Below, piece after piece: positions 2,347 through 34,391 of a stretch of DNA of 45,135 bases (position 1 is its first letter; the number at the start of each line of letters is the position of its first letter). The position numbers and the translations under genes are program-made. The notes under the pieces are model-generated. The model had not been told where the DNA came from and searched no databases. It worked only from the letters and a program-made list of their open reading frames with translations. Source of the DNA: Gemmobacter megaterium (GTDB lineage: Bacteria; Pseudomonadota; Alphaproteobacteria; Rhodobacterales; Rhodobacteraceae); the NCBI RefSeq assembly GCF_900156815.1, contig NZ_FTOT01000015.1, positions 1 through 45,135 of the forward strand, read 5' to 3'.

Positions 2347-2347
2347 C

Positions 2348-2776: not shown

Positions 2777-2880
2777 CTTCGCCTCCATGAAAAGTTACAG
2801 TCTGTGTAGGTTTTGCCGCCTCAATAGACAAGTGCCGGATTCACAGACGCGTGAGTTTAAGCCACAACGTGATTTCGCGC

Positions 2881-2911
2881 TTGAACCTCTAGTAGCTAGA
2901 GGATGTAAACG
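2881..2911 (+). promoter_or_regulatory. MerR-type promoter/operator for the SCO-Lnt operon
   Basis: TTGAAC (2881-2886), a 19-bp spacer, then TAAACG (2906-2911). The spacer contains the perfect 7-bp dyad CCTCTAG-TAG-CTAGAGG (2886-2902), the classic binding site shape for a MerR dimer. It lies between the divergent merR gene and the first gene of the long plus-strand operon. Confidence 0.82.
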
Positions 2912-2947
2912 CGACAATAATCAAGAATCAAAATCAGGCGCGCAGGT

Positions 2948-3550: not shown

Positions 3551-3555
3551 CCGAC

Positions 3556-4634: not shown

Positions 4635-4657
4635 ATGGAAAAGGCAGGACCAAAACG

Positions 4658-7121: not shown

Positions 7122-7124
7122 CCC

Positions 7125-7580: not shown

Positions 7581-7592
7581 TCTGGCCCGCTT

Positions 7593-8375: not shown

Positions 8376-8379
8376 CGCA

Positions 8380-8862: not shown

Positions 8863-10436
8863 AGCCGGTAATTCTGAACTGCTTCGCTCTGCGCAAACGT
8901 CTGCTCTCGCGGATGACGCTTGGTTTCGCCGCCGGGGCGCTGACCGTTCTAACCTTCCCGCCTTTCTCGATTCTCCTGCTTGTTCCCGTTGCCTATTCTG
9001 CGTTGTTTGTCGGTCTTCGCGACCTCTCCTTCGGGCGTGCTTTTCTCGTCGGCTGGGCGTTTGGTCTCGGCCAGTTCGGTTTCGGGATTTCGTGGATCGC
9101 GGAAAGTTTCTACGTCGAGGCCGAGCGTTTCGGGGCGCTGGCGATCCCGGCCGTCGCGGGATTGTCCGCAGGTCTCGCGATTTTCCCGGCCATTGCCGCC
9201 GTGCTCTTCGTCGAAATCGCGCGGCGCGGAGCCATGGGCAGTCTCCTGGCCTGCCTCCTGTTCGCGACCTCATGGACCGCGGCCGAGTGGTTGCGCGGTC
9301 ACGTTCTGACAGGTTTTCCGTGGAACCTCGCCGGCTACGCTCTTGTTGATTACGCCGCCCTTCGCCAGCCCGCCGCCTGGGTGGGAAGTTATGGGCTAAG
9401 CTTTCTCACCGTGTTCGTAGCGGCACTCCCCGGCGCGGCTCTCATGGCGGTCGGGCGACAACGATTGATCATCTCGCTCATGCCGCTGGCCGGCATCGTA
9501 ACGATGTGGGCCATCGGCACGCTTCGCCTCCAGTCGGATGCACCACAGCCACCGGATGTCGACCTGCGCATCGTTCAGGGCAACGTACCCCAAGAGGAGA
9601 AATGGGCGCCCGAGAACCGCGAGGCGACCTTCGCGCGCTATATCGAGCTTTCAACCCAGCCCGGCGATTTCGACGTTCTTCTCTGGCCGGAAACTGCCTT
9701 TCCCGGTTTCCTCGATGAGGATGCCCAGGCGCGATCCCGTATCGCGGCTGCGCTTCCGGACGGCAGCGTGCTGCTCACCGGAGTGCCGGACCGTGTACCG
9801 AGTGAGGATGGCACCCGATATTTCAACACCGTCCAGGCTTTTGACGATAACAGTGAGATCCTGACCGGATACGCGAAACACCATCTCGTGCCCTTTGGCG
9901 AATACACTCCATTCCGCGGCTGGTTGCCGATCGAGCGGCTGACAGCGGGGCTGGGCGATTTTACGCCTGGACCGGGCCTGCGAACGCTTGCGCTTCCGGG
10001 TGTGCCGCTGGTCGCCGTGGCGATCTGCTATGAGATCATCTTCCCAGGCCATGTGGTCGACGACCTGTTCCGACCCGACTGGATTTTTAACGCGACAAAC
10101 GATGCCTGGTTTGGAACCAGCATCGGACCCGAGCAGCATCTGGCTTCCGCACGTATGCGCGCCGTAGAGGAAGGCCTTCCTGTCATCCGAGCCGCGAATA
10201 CGGGCATCTCTGCCGTCATCGACGCGAACGGAGAGATCGTTGCGCGGCTCGATACCGGGGAAAGGGGCATAGTCGACGCTGATCTTCCCTCTGCGCGGCC
10301 GCCTACGCCATATGCGCTTTTTGGGGACTGGATGTTGCTGGCGCTCATCTTGGCTTCGTGGAGCTGGGCTCTGGCGGCCAATGCGACGGCTAACTACCGC
10401 CGCATGAGAAAGACCGTCATGCATAGATGTGGATAG
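8859..10436 (+). CDS. lnt: Apolipoprotein N-acyltransferase
   Basis: A 525-residue membrane enzyme that adds the third acyl chain to lipoproteins after LspA cleavage. The N-terminal half has several helices with the LRGHVLTGFPWNLAGYA motif. The C-terminal nitrilase domain has its catalytic triad: Glu278 in WPETAFPG, Lys340 in YAKHHLVPFGEY, and Cys390 in AICYEIIFP. The GTG at 8859 is chosen because it overlaps the lspA stop as GTGA; an upstream extension would run through lspA. Its 3' end overlaps the convergent L,D-transpeptidase gene by 20 bp. An lspA-lnt pair on a plasmid beside metal genes is notable. Confidence 0.93.
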   Translation: MKPVILNCFALRKRLLSRMTLGFAAGALTVLTFPPFSILLLVPVAYSALFVGLRDLSFGRAFLVGWAFGLGQFGFGISWIAESFYVEAERFGALAIPAVAGLSAGLAIFPAIAAVLFVEIARRGAMGSLLACLLFATSWTAAEWLRGHVLTGFPWNLAGYALVDYAALRQPAAWVGSYGLSFLTVFVAALPGAALMAVGRQRLIISLMPLAGIVTMWAIGTLRLQSDAPQPPDVDLRIVQGNVPQEEKWAPENREATFARYIELSTQPGDFDVLLWPETAFPGFLDEDAQARSRIAAALPDGSVLLTGVPDRVPSEDGTRYFNTVQAFDDNSEILTGYAKHHLVPFGEYTPFRGWLPIERLTAGLGDFTPGPGLRTLALPGVPLVAVAICYEIIFPGHVVDDLFRPDWIFNATNDAWFGTSIGPEQHLASARMRAVEEGLPVIRAANTGISAVIDANGEIVARLDTGERGIVDADLPSARPPTPYALFGDWMLLALILASWSWALAANATANYRRMRKTVMHRCG

Positions 10437-10929
10437 GCGTTCCGTCCTTCACCATTGCATAGATGTCCTCGATCTGCCGATCTGTGACCGCGATGCAGCC
10501 AGCTGTCCAGTCGCGGATGTCCGTCGGGTCGATGCCGGGGCGTGGACCACCATGGATGAAGATGTCGCCGCCGGGGGAAAGGCCCTGCGCTTCGGCAAAG
10601 GCGATGTCGGCCTCATTCGGATAAGAGATGCCAACTGAAAGATGATACGTACTTTCAGGGTTGCGCTTATCGACTATGTAGGTGCCCTCCGGGGTCCGAC
10701 CGTCTCCCTCGAATTGCTTGTGACCCTGAGGAGCGAAGCCCAGCCCGATCGGATAGGTTTGCAGCACGCGATCGGATCCGTCGAGAACAAGCAAACGCTG
10801 TCCCTTGTAGAGCCGAAGTCGCGTCACTTCGGGTCCGTCATAGCTGCGGAACTTGCCGGCACAGCCCGACAAAAAGGCCGCTAAGCCACCCAACAGGACG
10901 GCGCGGCGGGGAAATCGGATGGTTTTCAC
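10417..10929 (-). CDS. L,D-transpeptidase (YkuD) lipoprotein
   Basis: A 170-residue protein with a lipobox ending at Cys23 (AFLSGC), so it is probably lipid-anchored. The YkuD catalytic region is complete: His126 in IHGGPRPG and nucleophile Cys145 in WTAGCIAV. These enzymes make 3-3 peptidoglycan cross-links or attach proteins to the wall. It follows the P-type ATPase gene on the same strand with a 63-bp gap and is probably co-transcribed. As a lipoprotein it would be a substrate for the LspA/Lnt pair encoded next door. Confidence 0.9.
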   Translation of the reverse strand: MKTIRFPRRAVLLGGLAAFLSGCAGKFRSYDGPEVTRLRLYKGQRLLVLDGSDRVLQTYPIGLGFAPQGHKQFEGDGRTPEGTYIVDKRNPESTYHLSVGISYPNEADIAFAEAQGLSPGGDIFIHGGPRPGIDPTDIRDWTAGCIAVTDRQIEDIYAMVKDGTPIHIYA

Positions 10930-10992
10930 TGCTCGATGCCTCTTTCGTGAGGTCTGATATGGAAATAATGTTACCTTGCAAATGCCGCGTGA

Positions 10993-13347
10993 TCAATGTC
11001 CGTGGGCAAGCGCGGCCTTTGCGATCTGTGGCCCAACCTGCTCGCCACCGGACGGCGGTGCCTTGGCCTCTTGGCTGTTGAGCAGGCGCAGGGCGTTCGC
11101 CACCACCAGCAATGACACACCCACGTCGGCTGCAATAGCGCCCCACATCGATGCCATTCCGAACGCGGTAGCGACAACGAAAACTCCCTTGGTCGCCAAG
11201 GAAATACCGATGTTCTGATGGATAATCGACATTGTCCGGCGCGAATGACCGATCAGCCAAGGCACCTTGCCGAGGTCGTCGGTCATAAGGGCAATGTCCG
11301 CCGTCTCGATTGCCGCGTCAGAACCAACCGCACCCATCGCGATGGCATAATGCGCGCGCGCCATTGCGGGTGCATCGTTCACCCCGTCGCCGATCATGGC
11401 AACCATGTCGTGAGTTTTGACCAGGTCTTCGATGGCTGTCACCTTGTCTTCGGGCAGAAGCTCAGCGCGCACCTCGTCGATACCGACCTCGGCGGCAACG
11501 GCGCGCGCTGTTCGCTCGTTGTCACCGGTCAGCATGACGATGGTCTTCACGCCCTGCGCGTGAAGTTGCGCCACGATGCCCTTGGCATCAGGGCGGATGC
11601 GATCGCGCAGTTCAAGAATGCCCGTCACACCGGATTCATCGCCGACAGCGACAAGGGTGCTGCCGGCGCCTTCGATCCGCTCCCGCAGATCCTTCGGAAT
11701 GGCGTCGCCGAAACCCTTCTCCTCGGCAAACCGGTCCGACCCCAGCCAGATCGACCGTCCGTCAGTGCGTCCTTCAAGTCCCCTGCCGGGAATGGTGCGG
11801 GTATCCTCTGCGGCGGACACCTTGACGCCGTCGGCCTCCGCCCGCGCGAGAATGGCACGCGCCAAAGGGTGCGACGAACGTGCCTCCAGTCCTGCGGCGA
11901 GGGTCATCAGATCTTGCGCTGAAGCCCCGCCCAGCGGGTGCACCGCCGCCACTTCCGGCTGGCCCATGGTGATTGTGCCGGTCTTGTCCATGGCCAGCGC
12001 CGTCGTCCTGCCCGGCGCCTCTACATAGGCACCGCCCTTGATGAGGACGCCCGCCCGCGCCGAAGCGGTGAGCGCTGCGACGATGGAGACAGGGGTCGAG
12101 ATGACCAGAGCACATGGGCAAGCGATCACCAGCAGCACGAGGGCATTGTAGAACCAGTAATCCCAGGCTCCGCCGAAGATAAGCGGCGGCAGTAGCGCAA
12201 TTGCGACGGCGAGAGCCATGACGATAGGCGTGTAGATGCGGGCGAACTTTGCCACCCACTGTTCCACGGGCGCGCGGCGGGCATGAGCGTCGCCGACCAT
12301 GCGGATGATCTTGGCCAAGACGGTATCCGAGGCGGCCTTCGTGGCGCGCACCGTTAGTGTACCTTCGCCGTTGATCGTGCCCGCATAGACCTCGTCTCCG
12401 GTCTCTTTGGGTATCAAAGCACTTTCGCCGGTGATCGGCGCCTGGTCGACCGCGCCCGCGCCACCCGTCACCAGGCCGTCGAGCGGGATACGGTCGCCAC
12501 CGCGTACAATAAAGCTTGAGCCTACGGCGACTTGCGCCGCCGGCATGTCGGTCTCGCTTCCGTCATCGCGGATCACGCGCGCGGTGGGTGGCGCAAGATC
12601 CAGGAGCGCCGACACCGCGTTCCGCGCGCGCCCAACGCTCCAGCTTTCGAGAAAGAGGGACAGCGAAAAGAAAAAAGCCACTGTCGCTGCCTCGAAGAAT
12701 TCACCGAGCCCGATGGCTCCGGCGACTGCGACAACCATCAGCAGGTTCATGTCGGGCGACAGCCGACGTGCGGACGACCATGCCTTCGGTGCCACAAGCC
12801 AAACGCCGAATAGGATAGCAACTGCAAAAAGCCCTGCCTCGGCCAGCGGCATCGGCGCTTCGCCGTGCCCCGCGAAGAGGCCGAGCGCCCCGCCCATACC
12901 TGTCTCGACGATGTGCCAGAGAAAACCCGCCGCCCAGAAGCCGCCGCTGAGAGCCGTAAACAGCCGCTGTCGTGCAAGATGGGCCGCTTGGTCGACCGAC
13001 GCGTTCTCGGCATTCCACGGCTTCGCGGTCATGCCGGTGCTCGCGACAAGTTCCGCAACTTCGTCGTCCGATACACTCTTTGCGCTGTCGAGAATGGTCA
13101 TCCTCCCGTTGATCACATCGAACGCGAGATGCTCGGCCCCGCCGATCTGCGGGCCGATTACCTTATTCAAGATCGCGACCTCCTCGGCGCAATCGAGGCC
13201 GGACACCTGAAAACTGCGCCCGCCGGTTGGGGCGGGCGTCGTCGGTGCGATGTCGCCGCACGTTCCGGCGCTACCACAGCAACTGCCGCCGCTTGCCTGG
13301 GCATCTTCGGCGTGATCGTGATCGTGGCGGTGGGTGTCGGACGGCAT
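10993..13347 (-). CDS. Heavy-metal P1B-type ATPase (ZntA/CadA-like)
   Basis: A 784-residue ATP-driven exporter of soft divalent cations (Zn, Cd, Pb). The N-terminus is rich in His (6, 8, 10, 12) and Cys (CC at 23-24, Cys30). It is followed by an HMA-like domain with GLDCAEEV, which has one Cys instead of CxxC. Then come the A-domain ITGES, the membrane C410PC412 motif, the phosphorylation motif D454KTGT, the SSHP motif, and GDGVNDAPA. Its promoter is a MerR-type site at 13380-13410. The full length and all catalytic motifs show an intact gene. Confidence 0.95.
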   Translation of the reverse strand: MPSDTHRHDHDHAEDAQASGGSCCGSAGTCGDIAPTTPAPTGGRSFQVSGLDCAEEVAILNKVIGPQIGGAEHLAFDVINGRMTILDSAKSVSDDEVAELVASTGMTAKPWNAENASVDQAAHLARQRLFTALSGGFWAAGFLWHIVETGMGGALGLFAGHGEAPMPLAEAGLFAVAILFGVWLVAPKAWSSARRLSPDMNLLMVVAVAGAIGLGEFFEAATVAFFFSLSLFLESWSVGRARNAVSALLDLAPPTARVIRDDGSETDMPAAQVAVGSSFIVRGGDRIPLDGLVTGGAGAVDQAPITGESALIPKETGDEVYAGTINGEGTLTVRATKAASDTVLAKIIRMVGDAHARRAPVEQWVAKFARIYTPIVMALAVAIALLPPLIFGGAWDYWFYNALVLLVIACPCALVISTPVSIVAALTASARAGVLIKGGAYVEAPGRTTALAMDKTGTITMGQPEVAAVHPLGGASAQDLMTLAAGLEARSSHPLARAILARAEADGVKVSAAEDTRTIPGRGLEGRTDGRSIWLGSDRFAEEKGFGDAIPKDLRERIEGAGSTLVAVGDESGVTGILELRDRIRPDAKGIVAQLHAQGVKTIVMLTGDNERTARAVAAEVGIDEVRAELLPEDKVTAIEDLVKTHDMVAMIGDGVNDAPAMARAHYAIAMGAVGSDAAIETADIALMTDDLGKVPWLIGHSRRTMSIIHQNIGISLATKGVFVVATAFGMASMWGAIAADVGVSLLVVANALRLLNSQEAKAPPSGGEQVGPQIAKAALAHGH

Positions 13348-23702: not shown

Positions 23703-25070
23703 TCAAGGCCAATGCTCCCGATCTTTCACATGGGCATTTGGAGCATCCGTTGGCAATCTGACGGATGCCTGAAATCCAGAAGTTTCACCGGGACGTGGTG
23801 ACTGGAGCAAGAGAGAGGTTTCGATCCGTTCTGCGATGGCTGAGACGATAGCGAGGCCAAGCCCGCTACCATCAGTTTTTGCATCTGCCCTCTCGAAGCG
23901 CCCTGTCAGGCGTTCGAGTGTTTGGGTTGCTACCGCGGGGCCCTCGTTCGCCACGATCAACTGCCCGTCGCTCGTGAGTGTAACCTCGACTGGGGCATTC
24001 TGCGCCCCGTGGCGTAGGGCGTTTTCCACCAGATTCCGGCACAGAATTCCCAATGCGTCGGGGTCGATATCAGACAAGACAGGCGTGTCCGGCAAGTTCA
24101 ACATAAGGCGCCCGTTCTCTGTGCTGCGCGCAATATCTTCCACCACGACCCGAGTGATGGTTCTGACATCAGCGCTCTGGTCCATCCGAAGTCTACCGCC
24201 TTCCGCCCGCGCAAGCTGCAGGAGACGTTCGGACAGCCGAGCGAGACGCTTGAGCGTCGCCTCGATCTCGGCGGCGCGCGCGTCGATGGTCGGATCTTTG
24301 GTCTCTGACCGCAGTCGCTGCGCCTGGGCGATAGCGCCCGCCAATGGTGTCCTTAGTTCATGAGCCGCATTGGCTGCAAAACTTCGCTCAGCCTCGAACG
24401 CGTCGCGCAACCGAGCCAAAAGGCTGTTCAAGGTTGCAGCCAGCGGGCCGATTTCCGTCGGCAGGTCGGCCGCGGGTACTTCTGACAGGTCGCGCACGCC
24501 GCGCGCTTCAAGCCGCGTACGGAACCGATGGAGAGGGGCGAGGCTAAAGCGCACAGCGAGAATAATCGACGCGAGCGCCAACGGCAGCACAACCAGCAGC
24601 GGCAGGCCAAGGCTCATCTGGATTTCCCGAGCAACCGAAGCGCGATGCGCCAACGGTTCGGCCACGGTGATGCTGATCGTCCCCTGGAGCGCCGCGTCGC
24701 TGTAGAGGCGATGTGTGGCGTTCTGCCCAAATCCCGGACCATCGTATGGAGGAAACACGGCAGGGTCCGCCGCATGGGATTGCAGCAAAATGCGTCCCTC
24801 GGCATCGCGTACGATGTAGGTGAAGAACTCGTCATGCTCCCGGATCGGCGCGAGGCGCTGCGTCACACCCTGATCTTCTCGCCCGACGATGTCGGTCACG
24901 GCCAGCGGCAGGATGCGCTCGGCGGTTTCGCGTAGGGCGCTGTCGAAGACCTCATCCATCTCGCCCCGAACGATCACCGCGGTAACCGTGGCGGCGGCGA
25001 GCCAGAGGATCGTCAGCACAAGGCCGAGTGACAAGCCGAGCCGTACCTGAAGGCTGGATGGCCACATCAT
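23703..25070 (-). CDS. Sensor histidine kinase (two-component system)
   Basis: A 455-residue inner-membrane kinase. Helices at about 10-34 and 153-174 flank a periplasmic sensor domain. A HAMP-like linker follows, then the H-box FAANAAHELRTPL with His237, the N-box NLVENALRHG, and the G-box DGSGLGLAIV. It resembles QseC/TctE-type kinases. The ATG at 25070 overlaps the response-regulator stop (ATGA), so a longer frame beginning near 25265 is rejected. It probably senses an envelope or metal signal for the reductase island. Confidence 0.92.
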   Translation of the reverse strand: MMWPSSLQVRLGLSLGLVLTILWLAAATVTAVIVRGEMDEVFDSALRETAERILPLAVTDIVGREDQGVTQRLAPIREHDEFFTYIVRDAEGRILLQSHAADPAVFPPYDGPGFGQNATHRLYSDAALQGTISITVAEPLAHRASVAREIQMSLGLPLLVVLPLALASIILAVRFSLAPLHRFRTRLEARGVRDLSEVPAADLPTEIGPLAATLNSLLARLRDAFEAERSFAANAAHELRTPLAGAIAQAQRLRSETKDPTIDARAAEIEATLKRLARLSERLLQLARAEGGRLRMDQSADVRTITRVVVEDIARSTENGRLMLNLPDTPVLSDIDPDALGILCRNLVENALRHGAQNAPVEVTLTSDGQLIVANEGPAVATQTLERLTGRFERADAKTDGSGLGLAIVSAIAERIETSLLLQSPRPGETSGFQASVRLPTDAPNAHVKDREHWP

Positions 25071-25726
25071 GGCTTGCCCAGCCGGTAACCCATGCCGCGC
25101 TCGGTCTCGATGATGGCGCTCCCCAGTTTCTTGCGCAGGCGGCTCACGTGCACCTCGATGGTGTTGCTCTCGACTTCGGCGTCGAAAGCGTAGAGCTTCT
25201 CCTCCAACTGCGCCTTGGACAGGAGCTGCCCGGGACGCGCCAGGAAGGCCTCGAAGAGCGCCCATTCCCGCGCCGTCAGCGGCACATGTCTGCCATCCCG
25301 ATGGACGCTGCGCGCGGCAAGGTCGATGTCGAGCGGTCCGTGGGTCAGGATCGGGTTGGGGTTGCCGCTGTAGCGCCGCGCGACCGATCCGATCCGTGCC
25401 GACAGTTCCGACAGGTCGAAGGGCTTCACAAGATAGTCGTCAGCGCCCGCATTGAGGCCTTCGATCCTATCGGACACCTGGTCGAGCGCCGTCAGGATGA
25501 TGACCGGCGTCACGTCTCCACGCGTCCTGAGGCCCTTGAGGAACCCGATACCACGTCCGTCTGGCAGCATGAGGTCGAGCAGGAGCAGGTCGTAGGAGGT
25601 TGCGCTCATCGCGTCTGCCGCCGCGTCTAGCCGCGTGACCCAGTCTACTGACTGGCCATCAGCTGCGATCTGGTCGCGCACGGCAGCGCCAAGAGTCGTG
25701 TCGTCCTCGATCAGCAATATGCGCAT
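25067..25726 (-). CDS. OmpR/PhoB-family response regulator
   Basis: A 219-residue regulator. The receiver domain has the acidic pocket EDD (residues 7-9), phosphoacceptor Asp51 in LLLLDLMLPDG, and Lys in YLVKPFDL. The C-terminal winged helix contains LTAREWALFEAFL and NTIEVHVSRLRKKLG. Start ATG 25726 (MRILLIEDD) is the family start; upstream codons are ignored. Its own promoter region and that of the second PepSY gene contain CTGA-N7-CTGA boxes, which fit the tandem half-sites this family binds. Confidence 0.94.
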   Translation of the reverse strand: MRILLIEDDTTLGAAVRDQIAADGQSVDWVTRLDAAADAMSATSYDLLLLDLMLPDGRGIGFLKGLRTRGDVTPVIILTALDQVSDRIEGLNAGADDYLVKPFDLSELSARIGSVARRYSGNPNPILTHGPLDIDLAARSVHRDGRHVPLTAREWALFEAFLARPGQLLSKAQLEEKLYAFDAEVESNTIEVHVSRLRKKLGSAIIETERGMGYRLGKP

Positions 25727-25770
25727 GGTCGTACCCGTCCTTTCCTGATGTCCCTCCATGATCCGTCTGG

Positions 25771-25820
25771 CTGACACGAAGCTGAAGCTTGTGGGTCGAG
25801 CCCCTTCAGGCTGCCGTCAG
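25771..25820. promoter_or_regulatory. Divergent control region with inverted pair of CTGA-N7-CTGA boxes
   Basis: Plus-strand box CTGACACGAAGCTGAAGC (25771-25788) and minus-strand box CTGACGGCAGCCTGAAGG (25820-25803). Each has CTGA half-sites 11 bp apart, as expected for an OmpR/PhoB-type dimer. One box faces the PepSY gene and one faces the two-component operon. A 9-bp inverted repeat, CGAAGCTGA/TCAGCTTCG, spans both. Confidence 0.65.
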
Positions 25821-25871
25821 CTTCGCGGCGCATGAATGGCATCAAGAGGCGAGCCACTAGGAGTGTGCCCC

Positions 25872-26189
25872 ATGAAGAAGACATTGACAATTATCGGCTT
25901 TCTCGCGGTCTTTCCGGTCGGCGCGGCGCTGGCTGACGACGATTGCTTCGTGCCGATGGCCGACTGGCAGCCGCGCGATGCTGTTGCCATGCTGGCTGAG
26001 GAAAATGGTTGGACGGTGCGCCGGATCAAGATCGATGACGGCTGCTACGAGATCGATGGGAGGGATGCCGAGGGGCGTGCGATCGAGGTGACTGTCCACC
26101 CGGCCACGCTGGAGATAATCGAGTTCGAATACGAGGACGACGAGGATGATCGCCGCGAGCGGGATCACGAGAGACGCGACGATGACTGA
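25872..26189 (+). CDS. PepSY-domain periplasmic protein (1)
   Basis: A 105-residue exported protein. The signal peptide ends near ALA-DDD at residue 21. One PepSY-like domain follows (NGWTVRRIKIDDGCYEIDG and IEVTVHPATLEIIEF), then a highly acidic and basic tail (EDDEDDRRERDHERR). Cys pair: DDDC and DDGC. Small PepSY proteins of this type accompany two-component systems and may modulate signal or bind cations. It overlaps the ferric reductase-like gene by 8 bp. It is closely related to the protein at 27714. Confidence 0.85.
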   Translation: MKKTLTIIGFLAVFPVGAALADDDCFVPMADWQPRDAVAMLAEENGWTVRRIKIDDGCYEIDGRDAEGRAIEVTVHPATLEIIEFEYEDDEDDRRERDHERRDDD

Positions 26190-27531
26190 TGCAGCGCGTC
26201 GCGACGGTAATGTCCCGGTGCCGGGCCTGCCGCCACTCTCCCGGCTTTCCCTAAACTCTCCTCTAGCTCTGACGGGCCCGGTGCTGGTTGCGTTGCCATG
26301 CCTGCTGGCGGCACTGATCGGGTTCAACACCTATGCGCCCTATGGCGCGGATGCAGCACTTGGCATTGCCGTCGGGGCCGCGGCAGTTGTCGCGATGGCA
26401 CAGACCCTGATCCTCGCCGCACGGCCGCCGCTGGTGGAACCATTGTTCGGCGGTCTCGATCGCATGTACCGTTTCCACAAGTGGCTTGGTATTTCCGCAA
26501 TGCTCCTGATGATCCTGCACCAGCAGATCGAGCCGGATTTCGAGCGTTTGGTGCGTGAAACCTCTCTTGGTGAACTTGGTGAAGAGGCGGGCGAACTTGC
26601 CTTCAACGCGCTTCTCGCCCTGGTTGCTGTCAGCTGGTTCCGGAGATTGCCCTTCACCCCACTGGAAATCCCCTATCAGATCTGGCGGTTCAGCCATCGT
26701 TTCATGGGGGCCCTTTTTGCAATCGTGGTCTTTCACCAGTTCTTCGTCGACCTGCCGACAGAGGTAGATCCATCGCTCTCGGTGCTTCTAAACACATTTG
26801 GCATCGCGGGAGTGATCGCGTGGATATTCACCGAGCTGGTCGCCCCGTACCTGCGGCGTAGAGAATTCACCGTCACAGAGATCAGCCAGACCAAGGACAC
26901 CACCACGCTAACCCTCCGCCCCGAGGGGCGGGCAATGCGGTGGCGGCCGGGGCAATTCGCCTTCTTCCGCGCGCCAGAGGCAGGACTGTCCGAGCCGCAC
27001 CCCTTCACGATCGCCAGCGCCCCGCGCCCTGACGGCACCCTGACGTTCTCCATCCGGGGCTTGGGTGGCTGGACACGAAGCCTGCTCGCCATCTTGCGGA
27101 CCGGAACGCGCGTGCAGGTCGAAGGGCCATATGGACGGTTCAATTTCCGCAAGGGCGGTGCGCGCCAGATATGGCTGGCGGGCGGCATCGGTATCACGCC
27201 GTTCCTCGCCTGGGCCGAAAGCCTGAGCGAAGCGGATAGCCGCGACATTCACCTCATCCACTGCGTTCGGACACAAGAGGAGGCGATTGGGGTAGAGACG
27301 CTGCGCGCTGCGGCTGCCCGCAACCCGAGGTTCAGTTTCGAGGTGGTCGTTACGACGCGCGATGGCAGGCTCACGGCCGAGCGCCTGATTGGCGCGGTCC
27401 CTTTCGCGATCCGGCAAGCCGATTTGTGGTTCTGCGGCCCAACCGGTCTGAAGGACGGGATTCTCAAGGGCTTGAAAGCACAAGGCCAAACGCCTCGCCG
27501 TGTCCGCTTCGAGCAGTTCGAATTCACCTGA
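26182..27531 (+). CDS. Ferric reductase-like transmembrane / FNR fusion protein
   Basis: A 449-residue membrane oxidoreductase. About six helices with two pairs of heme-ligand His (99 and 113; 172 and 185) match the bis-heme FRE/NOX membrane domain. The C-terminal FNR module has the FAD motif HPFTIAS, the nucleotide motif GGIGITPFLAW, and FCGPTGLKDGI. Electrons from cytoplasmic NAD(P)H would cross the membrane through FAD and the two hemes to an acceptor outside, such as Fe(III), Cu(II) or oxygen. Start ATG 26182 overlaps the PepSY gene end. Confidence 0.9.
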   Translation: MTDAARRDGNVPVPGLPPLSRLSLNSPLALTGPVLVALPCLLAALIGFNTYAPYGADAALGIAVGAAAVVAMAQTLILAARPPLVEPLFGGLDRMYRFHKWLGISAMLLMILHQQIEPDFERLVRETSLGELGEEAGELAFNALLALVAVSWFRRLPFTPLEIPYQIWRFSHRFMGALFAIVVFHQFFVDLPTEVDPSLSVLLNTFGIAGVIAWIFTELVAPYLRRREFTVTEISQTKDTTTLTLRPEGRAMRWRPGQFAFFRAPEAGLSEPHPFTIASAPRPDGTLTFSIRGLGGWTRSLLAILRTGTRVQVEGPYGRFNFRKGGARQIWLAGGIGITPFLAWAESLSEADSRDIHLIHCVRTQEEAIGVETLRAAAARNPRFSFEVVVTTRDGRLTAERLIGAVPFAIRQADLWFCGPTGLKDGILKGLKAQGQTPRRVRFEQFEFT

Positions 27532-27588
27532 ACGCGGGGCAGGGCGCATAGCCATGCCAGCCCTGTAGCCTGCGCTCGCATCTTTTTT

Positions 27589-27614
27589 TGGCCCCGCCCT
27601 CATCGGCGGGGCCA
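27589..27614 (+). terminator. Rho-independent terminator-like hairpin after the reductase gene
   Basis: TGGCCCCGCC-CTCATC-GGCGGGGCCA, perfect 10-bp arms, followed by TTTTCC. It lies 57 bp after the reductase stop and before the next promoter region, so it probably separates two transcription units. Confidence 0.75.
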
Positions 27615-27619
27615 TTTTC

Positions 27620-27668
27620 CTGACGGCAAGCTGAAGCAGGAATCGCTGGGGCGTCAGGATGCCCTCAG
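27620..27668. promoter_or_regulatory. Second control region with inverted pair of CTGA-N7-CTGA boxes
   Basis: Plus box CTGACGGCAAGCTGAAGC (27620-27637) matches the box at 25771 at 15 of 18 bases. A minus-strand CTGA-N7-CTGA (27668-27654) follows. The gap between the two boxes is 19 nt, against 20 nt at the first region. The start of the second PepSY gene is 77 bp further on, against 84 bp at the first. Confidence 0.65.
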
Positions 27669-27713
27669 GTCGGGGTGCCAGATTGGTCTCATCAAACGAA
27701 AGGACTCCTTGCC

Positions 27714-28094
27714 ATGAAAAAGACCCTGACCGCCCTTGCCCTGATCGCACTTTTGCCCGCCGGCGCTGCGCTGGCCGACGACGATGATTGCAATGCGCCC
27801 CGTGACCAGTGGCAGCCGCGCGAGGCCGCCATGCAGATGGCCGAACAGAACGGTTGGACGGTGCGCGACTTCGAGATCGACGACGGCTGCTACGAAATCG
27901 AAGGCCGAGACCAGGATGGTCGCGAGATCGAGGTGAAGCTCGATCCGGCGACGCTGCAGATCGTCGAGATGGACTACGAGGATGATGACGACGACCGCGG
28001 TGGCGCCCGCAATCCCGCGCCCGCTGGAACGGTCGCTCCTCCGCAGAACGGCCTCTTCGGAAACGGCGCCCCTCCGCAGGTTCAGGTGAACTGA
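27714..28094 (+). CDS. PepSY-domain periplasmic protein (2)
   Basis: A 126-residue exported protein with signal peptide (cleavage near ALA-DDD), one PepSY-like domain (NGWTVRDFEIDDGCYEIEG, VKLDPATLQIVEMDYEDD) and a Pro/Gly/Asn-rich tail. It is very similar to the protein at 25872 over the first 95 residues, so the two arose by duplication; the tails differ. A good AAAGGAC ribosome site precedes ATG 27714. First gene of the DUF2271-ApbE-ATPase operon. Confidence 0.87.
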   Translation: MKKTLTALALIALLPAGAALADDDDCNAPRDQWQPREAAMQMAEQNGWTVRDFEIDDGCYEIEGRDQDGREIEVKLDPATLQIVEMDYEDDDDDRGGARNPAPAGTVAPPQNGLFGNGAPPQVQVN

Positions 28095-28129
28095 ACAGCT
28101 CCGAAGCACCCTGAACAAGGATCATTCCC

Positions 28130-28600
28130 ATGAAATCACTTCTCGCAACGCTCGCGCTTACCACCGCACTCACGCTTCCCGGCCTCGCTATGGCACGGCC
28201 CGTGACGCTCACAACCACCCTTAACAACTATGGCGGCGACGGCGCTTACCTCGCGCTTTACGTAACCGACGCCTCGGGCGCCTATGTCGGCAGTCTCTGG
28301 ATGGCCGGCGACAAGTCCAAGTACTACGAGCATCTTAGCGACTGGTACCGTGCCACGGGCGGCGATACCGCGGAGGTAAACGGCATCACCGGCGCCAGCG
28401 TCGGCGCGGGCCGCAGTCTCGAAATCACGCTTGATCTGGCCGATGCGCTGTTCGATGCGGGCTACACGCTGCACATCGACGCGGCGGTCGAGGATATGCG
28501 CGACAGCCCGAACGAGGTGGCCGTGCCGCTGACGACGGCGGGCGCGGGCACTCCGGTGACCGGGCGGCGCTACATCGCCAACTTCTCCTACGACATGTGA
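28130..28600 (+). CDS. DUF2271 periplasmic protein, possible flavinylated carrier
   Basis: A 156-residue exported protein, signal peptide cleaved near AMA-R (residue 22). The body resembles DUF2271 proteins, with LALYVTDASGAYVGSLWMAG. It contains NGITGAS (residues 84-90), close to the D-x-x-S/T-G-A-S/T motif at which ApbE attaches FMN; the first Asp is Asn here, and Ser90 would carry the flavin. An ApbE gene lies two genes downstream. If flavinylated, it could shuttle electrons in the periplasm. This role is inference. Confidence 0.78.
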   Translation: MKSLLATLALTTALTLPGLAMARPVTLTTTLNNYGGDGAYLALYVTDASGAYVGSLWMAGDKSKYYEHLSDWYRATGGDTAEVNGITGASVGAGRSLEITLDLADALFDAGYTLHIDAAVEDMRDSPNEVAVPLTTAGAGTPVTGRRYIANFSYDM

Positions 28601-28611
28601 GGGGCAGGGCC

Positions 28612-30819
28612 ATGATCCGTATACTCCATCGCTGGCCGGGTCTTCTGGCACTCGCGCTCGTCACGATCCTGAGCCTGAGCGGCGCTGCGCTCTCGGTCTT
28701 TCCGGCAGTCGAGCGCATCACCGCGCCGCAGGTGGAGACTGGCCTGACAGTCGCCACCCTCGCGGACCGCATCCAGGTCGTCTATCCGGGCGTCGAGCAG
28801 ATCCGGCGGTCGCCCTCCGGTCGGATCACCGCCTATTGGTTCGATCAGGGCGCGCCGGGTGCTGCCGTGATCGACCCGGCGACGGGCGCGGGCGTGGCCT
28901 CGGCCGACCCGAACCAGGCCCTTCGCTGGCTCACCAACTTTCATCGCTCGCTCTTCCTCGGAGATGGCGGGCGTATCGCCATGGCCGCCGGGGCCGCGGC
29001 GATGCTGGTCCTCTCGCTCTCGGGTGCTATGCTGGTCGCGCGACGGGCGGGCGGATGGCGGCACTGGTTCGCGTCCTTGCGCGGTCCGTTCGCGGGCAGG
29101 CTGCATGTCGAGATCGCCCGGATCGCCGTCATCGGCCTCGTTCTGTCCTCCACCACCGCCCTCTGGATGACAGCCTCCACCTTCGATCTTCTGCCGGACG
29201 GTAGCGTCCTGCCGGCTGATCCCACCGAAGTGAGCGGAGAAATTGGGTTCGCTCTCGATCAGATGGCCACGCTGCTGCAGGCCCCCGTCGCCGAGCTGCG
29301 CGAACTGAGCTTTCCCTATCCCGGCGACGCGACGGACGTGTTCACACTGAAGACCGACCGGGGCACCGGCTATCTTGACCAGGGAACCGGCGCGCTCGTG
29401 GCATGGGCCGACCTGACCGGGTGGGAGCGCGTCTCGGAAACCATTTACATGCTGCACACGGGGCAGGGGGCCGCGACGCTCGGCCTTGTGCTCGGGATGA
29501 TGGCGCTCGGAGTGCCGGCGATGGGCGTGACCGGCGTCTTGATCTGGCTTGCCGGGCGGCGCGGGCGGCCGCGCATCCGGGGCAACCAGCCCGCGGGCCG
29601 TGCCGAGACGATCATTCTTGTCGGCAGCGAGGGTGGCAGCACCTGGGGCTTCGCCGCGACCCTGCATGCCGCGCTGACGGCAGCGGGGCAGGGCGTCCAT
29701 GTTGGCCCGATGTCGGGCTTCGCGCCAGAGCGCTACGCCCGTGCCGAGCGCATCATCCTGCTCGCCGCGACCTATGGCGATGGTGCCGCTCCGTCCTCGG
29801 CGAAGGGCTTTCTCGACCGGCTGAACGCGTCGGCCCCTGTGCCTGATATCCAGATGGCCGTGCTCGGCTTCGGCGACCGCAGCTTTCCGGCCTATTGCGC
29901 CTTCGCCAACGCCGTTGCGGCAGCGGCGCAGGCGAAGGGCTGGGCCGAACTCATGCCGCTGGACACGATCGACCGCCAATCGCCACAGGATTTCGCGCGC
30001 TGGGGCCGCGCTCTTGGCGAGGCGCTTAGCATCTCTCTCGAGCTTTTTCACCAGCCCGTCTCGCCGCGCACCGAAACATTGACCCTCGTCTCGCGGCGCA
30101 ACTACGGGGCCGAGATGCAGGCGGGGGCCGCGATCCTGCGCTTCGCCCTGCCGCGCGCAACGCCGTGGCAGCGGCTGACGGGCACGGGCTTCGCACGGTT
30201 CCAGGCGGGCGACCTGATCGGCGTCCTGCCGCAGGGCAGCCCGGTGCCGCGCCTCTATTCGCTGGCCTCGGGCCGGCGCGACGGGTTCGTCGAGATCGTG
30301 GTGCGCAAGCATCCGGGCGGTCTGGCCTCGGGCCAGCTGACCGCGCTGGAACCGGGCGATACGGTCCGGGCCTTTCTGCGGCGCAATCCCGGCTTTCACG
30401 CCGGTCGCGGTCGCACCCCGCTGATCCTGATCGGGGCGGGCACCGGCATCGGGCCGCTGGCGGGCTTCATCCGCGGCAATGCGCGGCACAGGCCCGTGCA
30501 CCTGTTCTTCGGCATGCGGCATGCGGACAGCGATTTCTTCTATGGCGAGGAGATGGCCGGCTGGCAGGCAGAGGGGCGGTTGACCCGGCTTGTCACGGCC
30601 GTCTCGCGCGGGACGCTTCCGCATTACGTGCAGGACGCGCTGCGTGGAGAGGCCACCGAAGTTGCGCGTTTGCTTCGCAACGGGGCCCGCGTGATGGTCT
30701 GCGGCGGGCGCGACATGGCCATGGGTGTGACCGATGCGCTGGCCGAAATTCTCTCACCATTCGGGTTGACGCCCGCAGTTCTGAAGGCGGAGGGGCGGTA
30801 TGTCGAAGATGTCTACTGA
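28612..30819 (+). CDS. PepSY-TM / flavodoxin / FNR fusion reductase
   Basis: A 735-residue three-part protein. The N-terminal PepSY-TM membrane module (about residues 1-330) has four helices and His in FHRSLFLG and MLHTGQG. A flavodoxin-like domain follows (about 335-480; EGGSTWGFA, ATYGDG, GFGDRSFPAYCAF). The C-terminal FAD/NADPH reductase part has RLYSLAS, GAGTGIGPLAGF and a cytochrome P450-reductase-like end (GRYVEDVY). It should carry electrons from NADPH through FAD and FMN to the membrane part and outward. It starts 12 bp after DUF2271 and overlaps apbE by 20 bp. Confidence 0.92.
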   Translation: MIRILHRWPGLLALALVTILSLSGAALSVFPAVERITAPQVETGLTVATLADRIQVVYPGVEQIRRSPSGRITAYWFDQGAPGAAVIDPATGAGVASADPNQALRWLTNFHRSLFLGDGGRIAMAAGAAAMLVLSLSGAMLVARRAGGWRHWFASLRGPFAGRLHVEIARIAVIGLVLSSTTALWMTASTFDLLPDGSVLPADPTEVSGEIGFALDQMATLLQAPVAELRELSFPYPGDATDVFTLKTDRGTGYLDQGTGALVAWADLTGWERVSETIYMLHTGQGAATLGLVLGMMALGVPAMGVTGVLIWLAGRRGRPRIRGNQPAGRAETIILVGSEGGSTWGFAATLHAALTAAGQGVHVGPMSGFAPERYARAERIILLAATYGDGAAPSSAKGFLDRLNASAPVPDIQMAVLGFGDRSFPAYCAFANAVAAAAQAKGWAELMPLDTIDRQSPQDFARWGRALGEALSISLELFHQPVSPRTETLTLVSRRNYGAEMQAGAAILRFALPRATPWQRLTGTGFARFQAGDLIGVLPQGSPVPRLYSLASGRRDGFVEIVVRKHPGGLASGQLTALEPGDTVRAFLRRNPGFHAGRGRTPLILIGAGTGIGPLAGFIRGNARHRPVHLFFGMRHADSDFFYGEEMAGWQAEGRLTRLVTAVSRGTLPHYVQDALRGEATEVARLLRNGARVMVCGGRDMAMGVTDALAEILSPFGLTPAVLKAEGRYVEDVY

Positions 30820-31780
30820 GCGCGCGCGCATCGTCCTGAACGGCCCCACCATGGGCACGCGCTGGTCGGCCCTGTTCTTCGCGGATCGGGGCCGCGACAC
30901 GGATGCAATCCGTGCCGCCCTTCAGGCGGTTGTCGACGAGGTGGACACGCAGATGTCGACGTGGAACGCGGAGAGCGCGCTCATGCGGATCAACGCGGCG
31001 CCGGTGGGCGATTGGGTGGTGGTGCCGGAGCAACTGCGGGCGGTCCTGCGCCTCGGGCTCGAGATCGGGCGCGCCTCGGGCGGGGCCTTCGATATCGGAA
31101 TGGGCGATGCGGTGACGGCCTGGGGCTTCGGGCCCGGGGCCGCCGCGCCCGAGGGTATCCGCGCCGCGATGGACGCCCCCCGCCGCCCGGCGCAGGAGGT
31201 GCTGGAGATCGAGGGGATGCAGTTGCGCAAGACCGCGCCCATTGCGCTGGATCTGAACGGCATCGCCAAGGGCTATGGCGTCGACCAGCTCGCCGAGACC
31301 TTGCGCGATCATGGGATTGCCGACGCCCTTGTCGGCATCGACGGTGAGATGCGTGCCATGGGCCTGCGCCCCGATGGCGAGGCATGGATCATCGCGGTAG
31401 AAGCGCCGGACCCTGATCGCCGGACGCCGCAATCGGTTCTGGCGCTGCAGGACGCCGCCGTCGCGACATCCGGTGACTACCGCCATTGGGTGGAGGTTCA
31501 GGGGTGCCGCCTGTCGCATACCATGGATCCGAGACGTGGCGCGCCGCTGATCGCGCCGCCCGCCTCCGTCACCGTCGTGGCCCGCACCTGTGCCGAGGCC
31601 GATGCTTGGGCGACGGCGCTGATGGTGCTCGGTGCGGAGAGGGGTGCGGACCTCGCAAGACAACGTGGACTCGACGCCCTGTTTCTTCTGTGCGATGATG
31701 AAGGCAATGCAATGGGCGTGGGAGTCGGGCGTCTTTTTTCCGAAGAACCAGCGGCAATCGCCTCAGCCGGGGGAAGATGA
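30800..31780 (+). CDS. apbE: FAD:protein FMN transferase (ApbE)
   Basis: A 326-residue ApbE-family enzyme that moves FMN from FAD to Ser/Thr of a target protein. Family motifs: GPTMGTRWSA at the start, the ALDLNGIAKGYGVDQ flavin-binding stretch, ATSGDYRHWVE, and SHTMDPRRGAPL with the metal-site region DAWATALMVLG. No signal peptide or lipobox is seen, so it may act in the cytoplasm, or the start may be misjudged. Overlaps of 20 bp upstream and 4 bp downstream show strong coupling with the reductase and the ATPase. Confidence 0.93.
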   Translation: MSKMSTERARIVLNGPTMGTRWSALFFADRGRDTDAIRAALQAVVDEVDTQMSTWNAESALMRINAAPVGDWVVVPEQLRAVLRLGLEIGRASGGAFDIGMGDAVTAWGFGPGAAAPEGIRAAMDAPRRPAQEVLEIEGMQLRKTAPIALDLNGIAKGYGVDQLAETLRDHGIADALVGIDGEMRAMGLRPDGEAWIIAVEAPDPDRRTPQSVLALQDAAVATSGDYRHWVEVQGCRLSHTMDPRRGAPLIAPPASVTVVARTCAEADAWATALMVLGAERGADLARQRGLDALFLLCDDEGNAMGVGVGRLFSEEPAAIASAGGR

Positions 31781-33693
31781 GCCGCATGGAACAGACCCGT
31801 ACCGATCGCTTCAAGACCGCACTCCTGCTGATGGCCGCAACCGGGCTGATCGTGGGACTCGCATTCTACCTTGCGGGCCAACCAGAGATCGCGACCCTGA
31901 TCTGGATTGCAGGAGTTGTTCCCGCGCTGGCAGCGCTTGTGGTCGAAATCGTCCGGAGCATTGGGCGCGGCGAGGTGGGCCTCGATATCGTTGCCGCGCT
32001 GTCGATGTCGGCGGCGCTTGTCTTCGGCGAGACCTTGGCTGCGGCTGTCGTCGCAGTCATGTATTCTGGAGGCACTTTCCTCGAAGCCTTCGCTGAGGGC
32101 CGTGCACGTCGTTCGATGAAGGATCTTTTATCCCGCGTACCCCGGACCGCGACGCGGCACCGGAACGGCGGTCTTGAGGATGTGCCTCTCGAGGAGATCG
32201 CACCGGGCGATCGCCTGCTGATCCGGCAGGGTGATGTCGTTCCCGTGGACGGCACGGTGGCGTCCGACACCGCCTTCCTCGACACCGCGGCGCTGACGGG
32301 TGAGTCCCTGCCAGTCCGGCTGGCGCGCGGGGCCGACGCCATGAGCGGATCGACCAACGCGGGCGAGGCCTTCGACCTGACGGCGACGCGCGAGGCCAAG
32401 GACAGCACCTATGCCGGGATCGTTCGTCTAGTGGAGGAAGCGCAGGCGTCCAAAGCGCCGATGTCCCGGCTGGCCGACCGCTGGTCGCTGGGCTTTCTGG
32501 TCGTCACCGTCAGTATCGCCTTCGCGGCCTGGTGGTTCACAGGCGATCCGATCCGCGCGGTCGCCGTGCTGGTGGTCGCCACGCCCTGTCCGCTGATCCT
32601 TGCCGTGCCGGTCGCACTGGTCGCGGGTCTCTCGCGTGCGGCGCATTTTGGCGTTTTGATCAAGGGCGCAGGGCCGCTCGAGACAATGGCGCGCATCCGT
32701 ACGCTGATCCTCGACAAGACGGGGACGCTGACAGATGGCCGTCCGCAGATCATCTCGATCGACAGCCACGATGGCATGACCGAGGACGACATCCTCCGCC
32801 TTGCCGCCGCGCTCGATCAGGCATCGAAACACCCTGTGGCGCAGGCCATCGTCGCTGCCGCAAAGGCGCGGGCCTTCACACTGCCCGTTCCGACAGAAGT
32901 GGCTGAGATCCCGGGCGAAGGGGTCTTGGGTCGTGTGGAGGACCGCGAGGTGATCGTCGGCGGCGACGGCTTCGTGGCGTCCCGTGTCGGGCGGATGGTG
33001 GGCGATCACCCCGCCAAGGGCGCCGGATCGGTCCTTGTCGCAGTGGCAGTTGACGGTCACATGGCCGGGCACCTCGTCATGTCCGACCCGCTGCGCGAGG
33101 GAGCGGGTGCCATGCTGGACGGTCTGCGCCGTCAAGGGATCGCGCGCATCCTTCTGGCTACTGGCGACCGCGCGGACGTGGCCGAGCGCGTGACCGAGGG
33201 GCTGGGCCTCGACGGGCTGCGGGCCGGTCTGACGCCGGATCAAAAGGTGTTACTGGTGCTTTCCGAGCATAAACACGGGCCGGTGATGATGGTGGGTGAT
33301 GGTGTCAACGACGCGCCCGCCCTGGCCGCAGCCGATGTAGGCGTGGCAATGGGGGCACGGGGCGCCGCGGCCTCGGCCGAGGCCGCCGACGTGGTGCTGC
33401 TCGTCGACCGGATCGACCGGCTGGGGCCCGGCATCGAGATCGCGCGGGCCTCGCGGCGGATAGCGGTCGAAAGCGTTGTCGCCGGGATCGGCCTGTCTGT
33501 CATGGGCATGATCGCGGCCGCTTTCGGCTACCTCACGCCGGTCCAGGGCGCGCTCCTGCAAGAAGTGATCGACGTTGCCGTGATCCTGAACGCCCTGCGC
33601 GCGCTGCGCATCGCGCCGCAGGAGCCAGCTACGGGCAAACCACAGGCCATCACGTCAGAGCAAGGTGACATCGTTCAAGGAGCCACGCCATGA
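31777..33693 (+). CDS. P1B-type metal ATPase with TPC motif, no HMA domain
   Basis: A 638-residue ATP-driven cation pump. A-domain TGES (in AALTGESLP), membrane motif T269PC271P, phosphorylation motif D313KTGT, His352 in SKHPVAQA, and GDGVNDAPALA. It lacks any N-terminal metal-binding domain. TPC-type members form a minor P1B group apart from the Cu (CPC) and Co (SPC) pumps, and some are linked to iron or nickel; the metal here is not known. Coupled to apbE (4 bp) and to the VIT1 gene (4 bp). Pairing with a Fe/Mn transporter suggests iron or manganese efflux. Confidence 0.92.
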   Translation: MSRMEQTRTDRFKTALLLMAATGLIVGLAFYLAGQPEIATLIWIAGVVPALAALVVEIVRSIGRGEVGLDIVAALSMSAALVFGETLAAAVVAVMYSGGTFLEAFAEGRARRSMKDLLSRVPRTATRHRNGGLEDVPLEEIAPGDRLLIRQGDVVPVDGTVASDTAFLDTAALTGESLPVRLARGADAMSGSTNAGEAFDLTATREAKDSTYAGIVRLVEEAQASKAPMSRLADRWSLGFLVVTVSIAFAAWWFTGDPIRAVAVLVVATPCPLILAVPVALVAGLSRAAHFGVLIKGAGPLETMARIRTLILDKTGTLTDGRPQIISIDSHDGMTEDDILRLAAALDQASKHPVAQAIVAAAKARAFTLPVPTEVAEIPGEGVLGRVEDREVIVGGDGFVASRVGRMVGDHPAKGAGSVLVAVAVDGHMAGHLVMSDPLREGAGAMLDGLRRQGIARILLATGDRADVAERVTEGLGLDGLRAGLTPDQKVLLVLSEHKHGPVMMVGDGVNDAPALAAADVGVAMGARGAAASAEAADVVLLVDRIDRLGPGIEIARASRRIAVESVVAGIGLSVMGMIAAAFGYLTPVQGALLQEVIDVAVILNALRALRIAPQEPATGKPQAITSEQGDIVQGATP

Positions 33694-34391
33694 GCCGTCT
33701 ATCACATTCTGAAATCCATATGGTGCATCGCATCGGCTGGTTGCGGGCCGCCGTTCTCGGAGCCAACGATGGTCTTGTCTCGACCGCGAGCCTCGTCGTC
33801 GGCGTCGCGGCCGCAGGCTCCGGCAAGCCCGAGGTCATGATCGCCGGGCTGGCCGGGCTTATGGCTGGTGCGATGTCGATGGCGGCGGGGGAGTATGTCT
33901 CGGTCAGCTCGCAAACTGACGCCGAACAGGCGGACCTCGCCCGAGAGAGCCGTGAACTCGAGGAAACGCCCGAGGCCGAGCTCGAGGAACTAACCCTGAT
34001 TTATGTTGAAAGGGGGCTGGACCGCGACCTGGCGAAAAAGGTTGCCGTGCAACTGACTGAACGCGACGCGCTCGGATCGCATGCGCGCGACGAGCTCGGC
34101 ATTTCGGAAACCTTTACCGCCCGCCCTATCCAGGCGGCTCTGGTGTCCGCACTGACCTTCGCCGTTGGGGCGGTGCTGCCCCTGATCGTCGTGCTGCTGG
34201 TCTCGGAGGCGCAGATCGCTCCCCTGGTGGCGGGATCGACGATCCTTGGCCTTGCGGTTCTTGGCGGATTGGGCGCTTCGGCCGGCGGCGCAGGCGTCGT
34301 CCGTGGGGCCACGCGGGTCACGCTATGGGGAGCGCTTGCAATGGCGGCGACAGCCGGGGTCGGTGCGCTGTTCGGGGTCGCCGTAGGCTAG
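33690..34391 (+). CDS. VIT1/CCC1 family Fe/Mn transporter
   Basis: A 233-residue membrane protein of about five helices. Signatures: VLGANDGLVSTASLVVGVAAAG in helix 1 (split as LGANDGLVS and VVGVAAAG), GAMSMAAGEYVSVSSQ, and a cytoplasmic acidic metal-binding loop (EETPEAELEELTLIY). VIT1 proteins move Fe(II) or Mn(II) out of the cytosol. It is the last gene of the island and overlaps the ATPase by 4 bp. Confidence 0.93.
   Translation: MSRLSHSEIHMVHRIGWLRAAVLGANDGLVSTASLVVGVAAAGSGKPEVMIAGLAGLMAGAMSMAAGEYVSVSSQTDAEQADLARESRELEETPEAELEELTLIYVERGLDRDLAKKVAVQLTERDALGSHARDELGISETFTARPIQAALVSALTFAVGAVLPLIVVLLVSEAQIAPLVAGSTILGLAVLGGLGASAGGAGVVRGATRVTLWGALAMAATAGVGALFGVAVG

Follow-up and report, generated by a model that had tools for sequence, protein, structure and literature searches.

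Why would a bacterial plasmid carry, side by side, the genes of a transmembrane electron-transfer apparatus and those of two metal transporters? The question is raised by a 45,135-nucleotide stretch of Gemmobacter megaterium DNA (contig NZ_FTOT01000015.1; hereafter the window), which is the entire contig C36 of a 45-contig draft assembly. Ten genes at window positions 23703 to 34391, called here the island, encode a sensor kinase and its response regulator, two small secreted proteins (PepSY1 and PepSY2), a ferric-reductase-like protein (FRE), a DUF2271 protein, a fused PepSY-TM reductase (PFF), the flavin transferase ApbE, a P-type ATPase and a VIT1-type transporter (VIT). A first-pass annotation had named this set, and Pfam finds the expected domains in all ten proteins.

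The island is a real, conserved and mobile unit. Its redox core, consisting of the PepSY-TM reductase, DUF2271, ApbE and sometimes VIT1, belongs to an already described class of flavinylation clusters. What is new is the link of this core to two putative exporters through a conserved DNA switch that they share, together with an oddity of ApbE. We tentatively read the island as a self-regulated, mobile Fe(II)-stress unit that pairs efflux with periplasmic reduction, iron being the metal and reduction aiding its efflux.

Conservation and mobility of the island

The gene order, which the first-pass annotation had proposed searching for in other genomes, is kept in 80 loci, more than expected by chance. 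The best 80 of 143 PFF relatives retrieved by a protein search span 39 named genera, as counted from record titles. Upstream genes were counted in the 73 loci having at least 5.2 kb of upstream sequence and downstream genes in the 68 whose downstream sequence reaches 4 kb or more. At the match thresholds that we chose, DUF2271 is kept in all 73, and the kinase, the regulator, PepSY1 and PepSY2 are kept together in 71. The position occupied by FRE alternates: FRE is present in 37 of the 73 loci and a b561-type cytochrome replaces it in 27, never both, with 9 loci having neither. Downstream, ApbE is kept in 68/68 loci, the P1B-5 pump in 50, VIT in 49 and the two transporters together in 46. When PFF was clustered at 95% identity, the pump was found in 26 of 44 clusters, VIT in 25 and both in 22; FRE was found in 16 and b561 in 24 of 48 clusters.

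Twenty more distant loci have the DUF2271-PFF-ApbE core without the P1B-5 pump. VIT occurs in three of them, in differing orientations (L138, L143 and L145), and other P-type ATPases occur in L138, L139 and L143. In the stretches examined, L134 and L137 gave no ApbE match, and L137 no PFF match. The DUF2271 cluster of these two loci is adjoined by an FRE-type protein, of 212 and 428 amino acids.

We surveyed linkage in 198 genomes of the family, which contain 44 DUF2271 places, 33 places with a P1B-5-like gene (E 1e-180) and 52 with VIT (E 1e-40). At 18 of the 44 DUF2271 places a VIT gene is no more than 8 kb away, against about 0.15 expected for random placement in 4 Mb. P1B-5 is that close at 10 of the 44, and VIT is there too in all 10. 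VIT is found in 27/40 genomes having DUF2271 and in 18/158 without it (Fisher p 3e-12), and P1B-5 in 14/40 and 16/158 (p 3e-4); because the genomes share ancestry, these p values are guides only. Outside the 80-locus set, a DUF2271 relative at E 1e-8 was found in 40 of the 198 family genomes and in 14 of 398 genomes of the phylum. Chance gene adjacency is ruled out by the order kept in 80 loci and by the linkage of VIT to DUF2271, and the physical association with Fe/Mn-type transporters proposed in the first-pass annotation is thus borne out.

The contig ends have 95 bases in common, and joining them repairs the reading frame of one CDF gene. The window therefore probably represents an entire circular RepABC plasmid, about 45,040 bp long, the alternative being a repeat that sits at the contig ends; RepA and RepC were both identified on it. 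The same ten genes are annotated one by one, at 99.9% identity, on plasmid pRIdsm_03 of Roseovarius indicus. The island matches 66 plasmid records, 47 of which have at least 80% of it in one place and 52 of which are typed as conjugative. As 38 of the 66 are from Pseudosulfitobacter, the count is largely clonal. An identical PFF protein occurs in four genera (L010 to L013), arguing for recent transfer. One island copy (L040) is on a contig named as that of the actinobacterium Enemella evansiae; the contig is probably a stray or a contaminant.

Relation to known flavinylation clusters

The first-pass annotation was aware of no described system with exactly this set. That such a set is new is not supported for the core, which corresponds to the PepSY-like flavinylation clusters of PMC8238504. 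That paper counts 3220 PepSY-like clusters, 2833 of them with DUF2271; VIT1 occurs in 167 clusters and an MsrQ-like (PF01794) gene in 108, and 1077 PepSY-like genes encode an NAD-binding domain. The island has the marks of the class: a PF03929 or PF16357 protein no more than five genes from ApbE or DUF2271, a signal peptide on ApbE or its substrate (here on DUF2271, by pattern and hydropathy), and the sequence [S/T]GA[S/T] in DUF2271. In agreement with the earlier suggestion of a flavinylation motif, the latter is present as a TGAS-type sequence in 86/86 DUF2271 homologues. The likeness thus covers a PepSY_TM protein with an NAD-binding domain, DUF2271 with its motif, ApbE and, in part, VIT1 and PF01794. 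The island differs by its P1B-5-type ATPase, its two-component system with conserved operators, its PepSY_2 proteins, the exchange between FRE and b561, the signal-less ApbE and its carriage on plasmids.

The term P-type ATPase does not occur in the main text of PMC8238504. A literature search, which did not extend to the supplement of that paper or to subscription papers, found no publication on the island or on the P1B-5/VIT/DUF2271 set. In a comparison with ferrosomes (FezC and FezB; PMC11334425), the Pfam matches of the island included DUF2271 and PF03929 and no DUF4405.

Conserved operator boxes

Two facing copies of the sequence CTGAC-N6-CTGAA are found between the divergent response regulator and PepSY1 genes, and a third copy precedes PepSY2. 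In an alignment of 80 such divergent promoters (50 distinct, the window included), CTGAC is invariant and the facing repeat is present. With two mismatches allowed, the pattern matches 11 times in the window and 2.92 times in shuffled sequences, none of 100 shuffles reaching 11. Box 3 recurs, with no more than a single mismatch, in 67 of 71 distinct regions and in none of 71 single shuffles. In the distant relatives, a box with at most one mismatch is present in 17/17 promoters, with 0.25 expected; these are the 20 distant loci minus the three without a regulator match. In the host genome, SCTGACNNNNASCTGAAG occurs twice, both times inside the island, box 2 falling outside that pattern. From their position and co-conservation, these boxes are the predicted binding sites of the island regulator. 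They share the pentamer-N6-pentamer layout of the BqsR operator, TTAAG-N6-TTAAG (PMC4682146).

Electron-transfer proteins and the ApbE paradox

FRE has the marks of NOX enzymes and ferric reductases, i.e., FAD and NAD domains and two membrane His pairs, H-X13-H and H-X12-H, which are kept in 35/35 FRE homologues, as expected of the bis-heme protein annotated at first pass. Its best structural relative is 8qt6, which we take to be a bacterial NOX. The structure of the PepSY-TM half of PFF was predicted alone and then compared, and FoxB (PDB 7abw) was the top fold match after VIA-align re-ranking. The model is that of a PepSY-TM fold with two predicted His-ligated hemes, as in FoxB. Unlike this siderophore reductase, PFF is fused to a cytosolic NADPH/FAD/FMN module resembling cytochrome P450 reductase (CPR). 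The domains, motifs and folds of FRE and PFF support two NAD(P)H-fed electron routes across the membrane, as had been suggested, and a flavinylated periplasmic carrier is their likely target. By analogy with their families, electrons would travel through both proteins and DUF2271 would be flavinylated.

DUF2271 is presumably the substrate of ApbE, and it has a leader in 85/86 loci as judged by pattern and hydropathy. By the same means, the N terminus of ApbE is too short to hold a signal peptide in 84/84 loci. Its start lies 22 residues ahead of the end of the GTRW motif in 83 of them and 34 residues in L042, with no hydrophobic stretch. The distant ApbE proteins examined look similar, although in two no start codon was located and a few have longer frame extensions that are not signal-like. 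The host genome contains one other ApbE (L096, C9:480-1193), which has an RR leader and whose adjoining genes presumably resemble nosY and nosL. Since DUF2271 has a leader, the island ApbE has none and the host has a second ApbE with an RR leader, there are three possibilities: flavinylation precedes export, the exported ApbE of the host serves DUF2271, or localization has been misjudged.

Transporters and the direction of metal transport

The ATPase contains TPCP at residue 269, in keeping with its annotation as a TPC-type pump. It is 53% identical over 626 residues to an open reading frame (ORF) on pSymA of Sinorhizobium meliloti 2011 that carries a hemerythrin domain and that we take, from its replicon and architecture, to be Nia. 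Among full-length homologues of the island pump, TPCP is present in 50/50 and QExxD, presumably the class mark of P1B-5, in 49/50. By sequence, the pump thus groups with Nia, a P1B-5 pump for Fe2+ and Ni2+. It differs from Nia by its place in a redox operon and by the lack of a C-terminal hemerythrin domain: Pfam found no Hemerythrin match in the 638-residue ORF, which ends past the last membrane helix. In four of the 80 loci (L048, L050, L067 and L083) a different pump, with an SPC motif, follows ApbE in that slot. Those of L067 and L083 also have HEGGT, which the 570-residue ORF of L048 lacks, and the solved structure closest to the L067 pump is 7qbz, which we believe to be a P1B-4 Co/Zn pump. 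VIT matches EgVIT1 (6iu3, E 5e-18) and keeps seven of ten positions that we take to be metal residues (D43, M80, E102, E105, E113, E116 and E153, but not E72, M149 or M150).

A C-terminal hemerythrin domain occurs in some P1B-5 members and is not required of all (PMC9388753). Fe2+ and Ni2+ both induce Nia, and nickel and iron build up in its mutant (PMC4932525). Iron exporters include P-type ATPases and MbfA, the membrane part of which is VIT1-like (PMC7762939). The island VIT resembles the VIT1 family and the MbfA exporters of alphaproteobacteria (PMC7762939) by its VIT1 domain and the conserved EgVIT1 D, M and Glu positions; it differs by the lack of a ferritin-like domain and by H-A in place of the M149-M150 pair. 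Both transporters belong to families whose characterized bacterial members export iron (PMC4932525, PMC7762939). As these relatives (Nia, P-type ATPases and MbfA) are exporters, it is more probable that the island transporters rid the cytoplasm of Fe(II) or an ion like it than that they import the product of the reductases. The first-pass annotation had them handle the Fe(II)/Mn(II) that results from reduction; the linkage to Fe/Mn-type transporters holds, and uptake of the reductase product is less likely than efflux.

Reductive iron acquisition would work in the opposite direction. In such a scheme, periplasmic Fe(III) or ferric siderophores are reduced and VIT1 imports the resulting Fe(II), and PMC8238504 offers this reading for the whole PepSY-like class, which it ties to VIT1, TonB receptors and Fur repression in Shewanella and Caulobacter. 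The match of PFF to a siderophore reductase also fits. We consider uptake unlikely for the island, given the export of iron by characterized relatives of both transporters (PMC4932525, PMC7762939), the dedicated two-component regulation and the copper/zinc/cadmium genes of the same replicon. In addition, the annotation shows neither a TonB receptor nor FeoB among the ten genes or the neighbors viewed in the pRIdsm_03 copy.

The same architecture might instead serve another metal, Ni, Co, Mn, Zn or Cu, with, for example, Cu(II) or Mn(III/IV) being reduced and divalent ions exported. Nia also moves Ni2+, NCBIfam places the ATPase in a cadmium/heavy-metal family, the PepSY_TM protein CrpH has been tied to copper (PMC13038864), and the plasmid bears a Cu/Zn/Cd module. 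The pump has neither the CPC motif of Cu and Zn pumps nor any CxxC, and Fe2+ is a substrate shared by VIT and the P1B-4 and P1B-5 alternatives. A metal other than iron thus seems improbable.

The two-component system and PepSY_2 proteins

The regulator is PmrA/QseB-like, with BasR as its best solved relative (E 2.3e-41) and the CarR receiver also among the matches. The periplasmic domain of the kinase has three ExxE motifs (residues 35-38, 46-49 and 76-79, counting from the W of MMWPSS); the first two read E35-M-D-E38 and R45-E46-T-A-E49. E35xxE38 is kept in 64 of 73 distinct kinases and D41 in all 73, and H77, E79, H97 and H140 are kept in 56/56 close kinases. BqsS binds Fe2+ through R44-E45xxE48-N49 (PMC12666569). 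DbfQ, a small PepSY protein encoded next to a kinase, is a direct regulator (PMC12714742), and UipA, another small PepSY protein found near such kinases, binds uranium and iron (PMC8963506). The island resembles the DbfQRS/BqsRS systems (PMC12714742, PMC12666569) in having a small secreted PepSY protein encoded next to a kinase and its regulator, a periplasmic RExxE and an operator of the same layout. It differs in that its small proteins are PepSY_2, not PepSY, in Pfam, its operator pentamers are others, and RExxE is not kept in distant relatives. Iron sensing by the kinase is plausible from these sequence features.

Layout of the island and its replicon

Gene coordinates were taken over from the pRIdsm_03 annotation (Table 1). 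Comparison with that copy places the start of the kinase gene at about 25070, not 25265.

Table 1. Features of the island (window coordinates)
Feature	Position	Strand	Description
Sensor histidine kinase	23703..25070	-	HAMP, HisKA, HATPase_c; periplasmic domain
OmpR/PmrA-type response regulator	25067..25726	-	Response_reg, Trans_reg_C
Operator box 1, GCTGACACGAAGCTGAAG	25770..25787	+	In divergent promoter
Operator box 2, GCTGACGGCAGCCTGAAG	25804..25821	-	Faces box 1
PepSY1, small periplasmic PepSY_2 protein, acidic tail	25872..26189	+	Pfam PepSY_2
FRE, bis-heme ferric-reductase/NOX-type protein	26146..27531	+	Ferric_reduct, FAD_binding_8, NAD_binding_1
Terminator-like hairpin between FRE and PepSY2	27589..27614	+	10 pairs then TTTT; consensus match only
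Operator box 3, CCTGACGGCAAGCTGAAG	27619..27636	+	Precedes PepSY2, directly after hairpin
PepSY2, small periplasmic PepSY_2 protein, acidic tail	27714..28094	+	Pfam PepSY_2
DUF2271 protein	28130..28600	+	DUF2271 E 3.4e-35; leader peptide; flavinylation motif GITGAS
PFF, predicted FoxB-like PepSY-TM bis-heme module and CPR-like FMN/FAD/NADPH module	28612..30819	+	PepSY_TM, Flavodoxin_1, NAD_binding_1
ApbE flavin transferase, no signal peptide	30800..31780	+	ApbE E 3.8e-77
P1B-type ATPase, TPCP and QExxD, closest to S. meliloti Nia (P1B-5)	31786..33693	+	E1-E2_ATPase, Hydrolase
VIT1-family transporter	33690..34391	+	VIT1 E 1.4e-65

The replicon carries a second set of metal genes at 1222-13347, which we regard as a copper/zinc/cadmium module: CDF, a MerR-type (CueR/ZntR-like) regulator, SCO1, a DsbA-like protein, PCuAC, DUF411, ZIP, Lnt and a ZntA-like ATPase. 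In the Defluviimonas plasmid copy of the island, a multiheme cytochrome c gene (L002:6605-7705) adjoins the kinase gene. A secreted protein of about 200 residues recurs in seven loci (L048, L002, L043, L060, L070, L079 and L083); the L048 copy (L048:8322-8921) is encoded between b561 and PepSY2 and has no Pfam match.

A model for the island and its alternatives

Our model starts from the observed genes, their order, the operators, linkage, folds and conserved motifs. The two-component system would sense a periplasmic metal, probably Fe2+, aided by the secreted PepSY proteins, and the regulator would bind the three boxes and switch on its own island. The ATPase and a VIT-type antiporter would then expel Fe2+, or an ion like it, from the cytoplasm, the direction being that of their families. 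In parallel, NADPH would feed electrons into PFF, where they would pass FAD, FMN and two hemes, cross the membrane and reach the FMN carried by DUF2271; FRE or, in other loci, b561 would be a second membrane cytochrome. A periplasm kept reducing in this way would let exported iron remain soluble as Fe2+ and leave without precipitating as Fe(III). That iron is the signal, and that reduction has this purpose, are purely suppositions on our part. A more complete version has periplasmic Fe(II) switch on both the Fe(II) exporters and an NADPH-fed electron line to a secreted flavoprotein, DUF2271, which the signal-less ApbE would flavinylate in the cytoplasm before export, with no need for FAD export; it is doubtful that all of these parts hold together.

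Several observations weigh against the Fe(II)-stress model. At 26 of the 44 family DUF2271 places neither transporter lies within 8 kb, so the redox core can work without them. Conversely, 23 of the 33 P1B-5 places are not near DUF2271, and at 3 of the 33 (G522, G524 and G410, the first two near a contig start) P1B-5 and VIT form a stand-alone pair. The pentamers of the operator, CTGAC/CTGAA, are not the TTAAG of BqsR. A looser operator pattern has three exact matches in the host genome, two in the island and one at C43:17169, and with one mismatch it has 70 matches against 23 for a reversed control. A scan for a wider regulon with the latter pattern was thus discarded as unspecific, and targets other than the island are possible. 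RExxE is found in 45 of the 73 distinct kinases, comprising 45/56 close and 0/17 distant ones, and at least two ExxE arise in 16% of shuffles of the acidic periplasmic domain; we therefore rejected the conserved ExxE as proof of iron sensing. Lastly, we found no precedent that explains a need for reduction beside efflux.

The separation of core and transporters at those places would also fit a general periplasmic redox or oxidative-stress system, made of a NOX-like FRE and a flavin carrier, with transporters that merely ride on metal-resistance plasmids. The closeness of FRE to 8qt6, a bacterial NOX, points the same way. We regard this as quite unlikely: VIT is linked to the core in varying orientations even in the distant loci L138, L143 and L145, and the ATPase and VIT genes follow ApbE in the same gene string, half of the PFF clusters (22/44) keeping both.

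Significance

Thousands of flavinylation clusters have been listed, and the VIT1 partner of the PepSY/DUF2271 class has so far been read as an importer. The two putative exporters of the island lead to a testable prediction opposite to uptake, and the three conserved operator boxes provide a compact handle for reporter work on this class. An ApbE without an export signal beside an exported substrate questions the site of flavinylation. If the Fe(II)-stress model is true, periplasmic reduction would go with metal efflux on mobile plasmids, and not with iron uptake alone.

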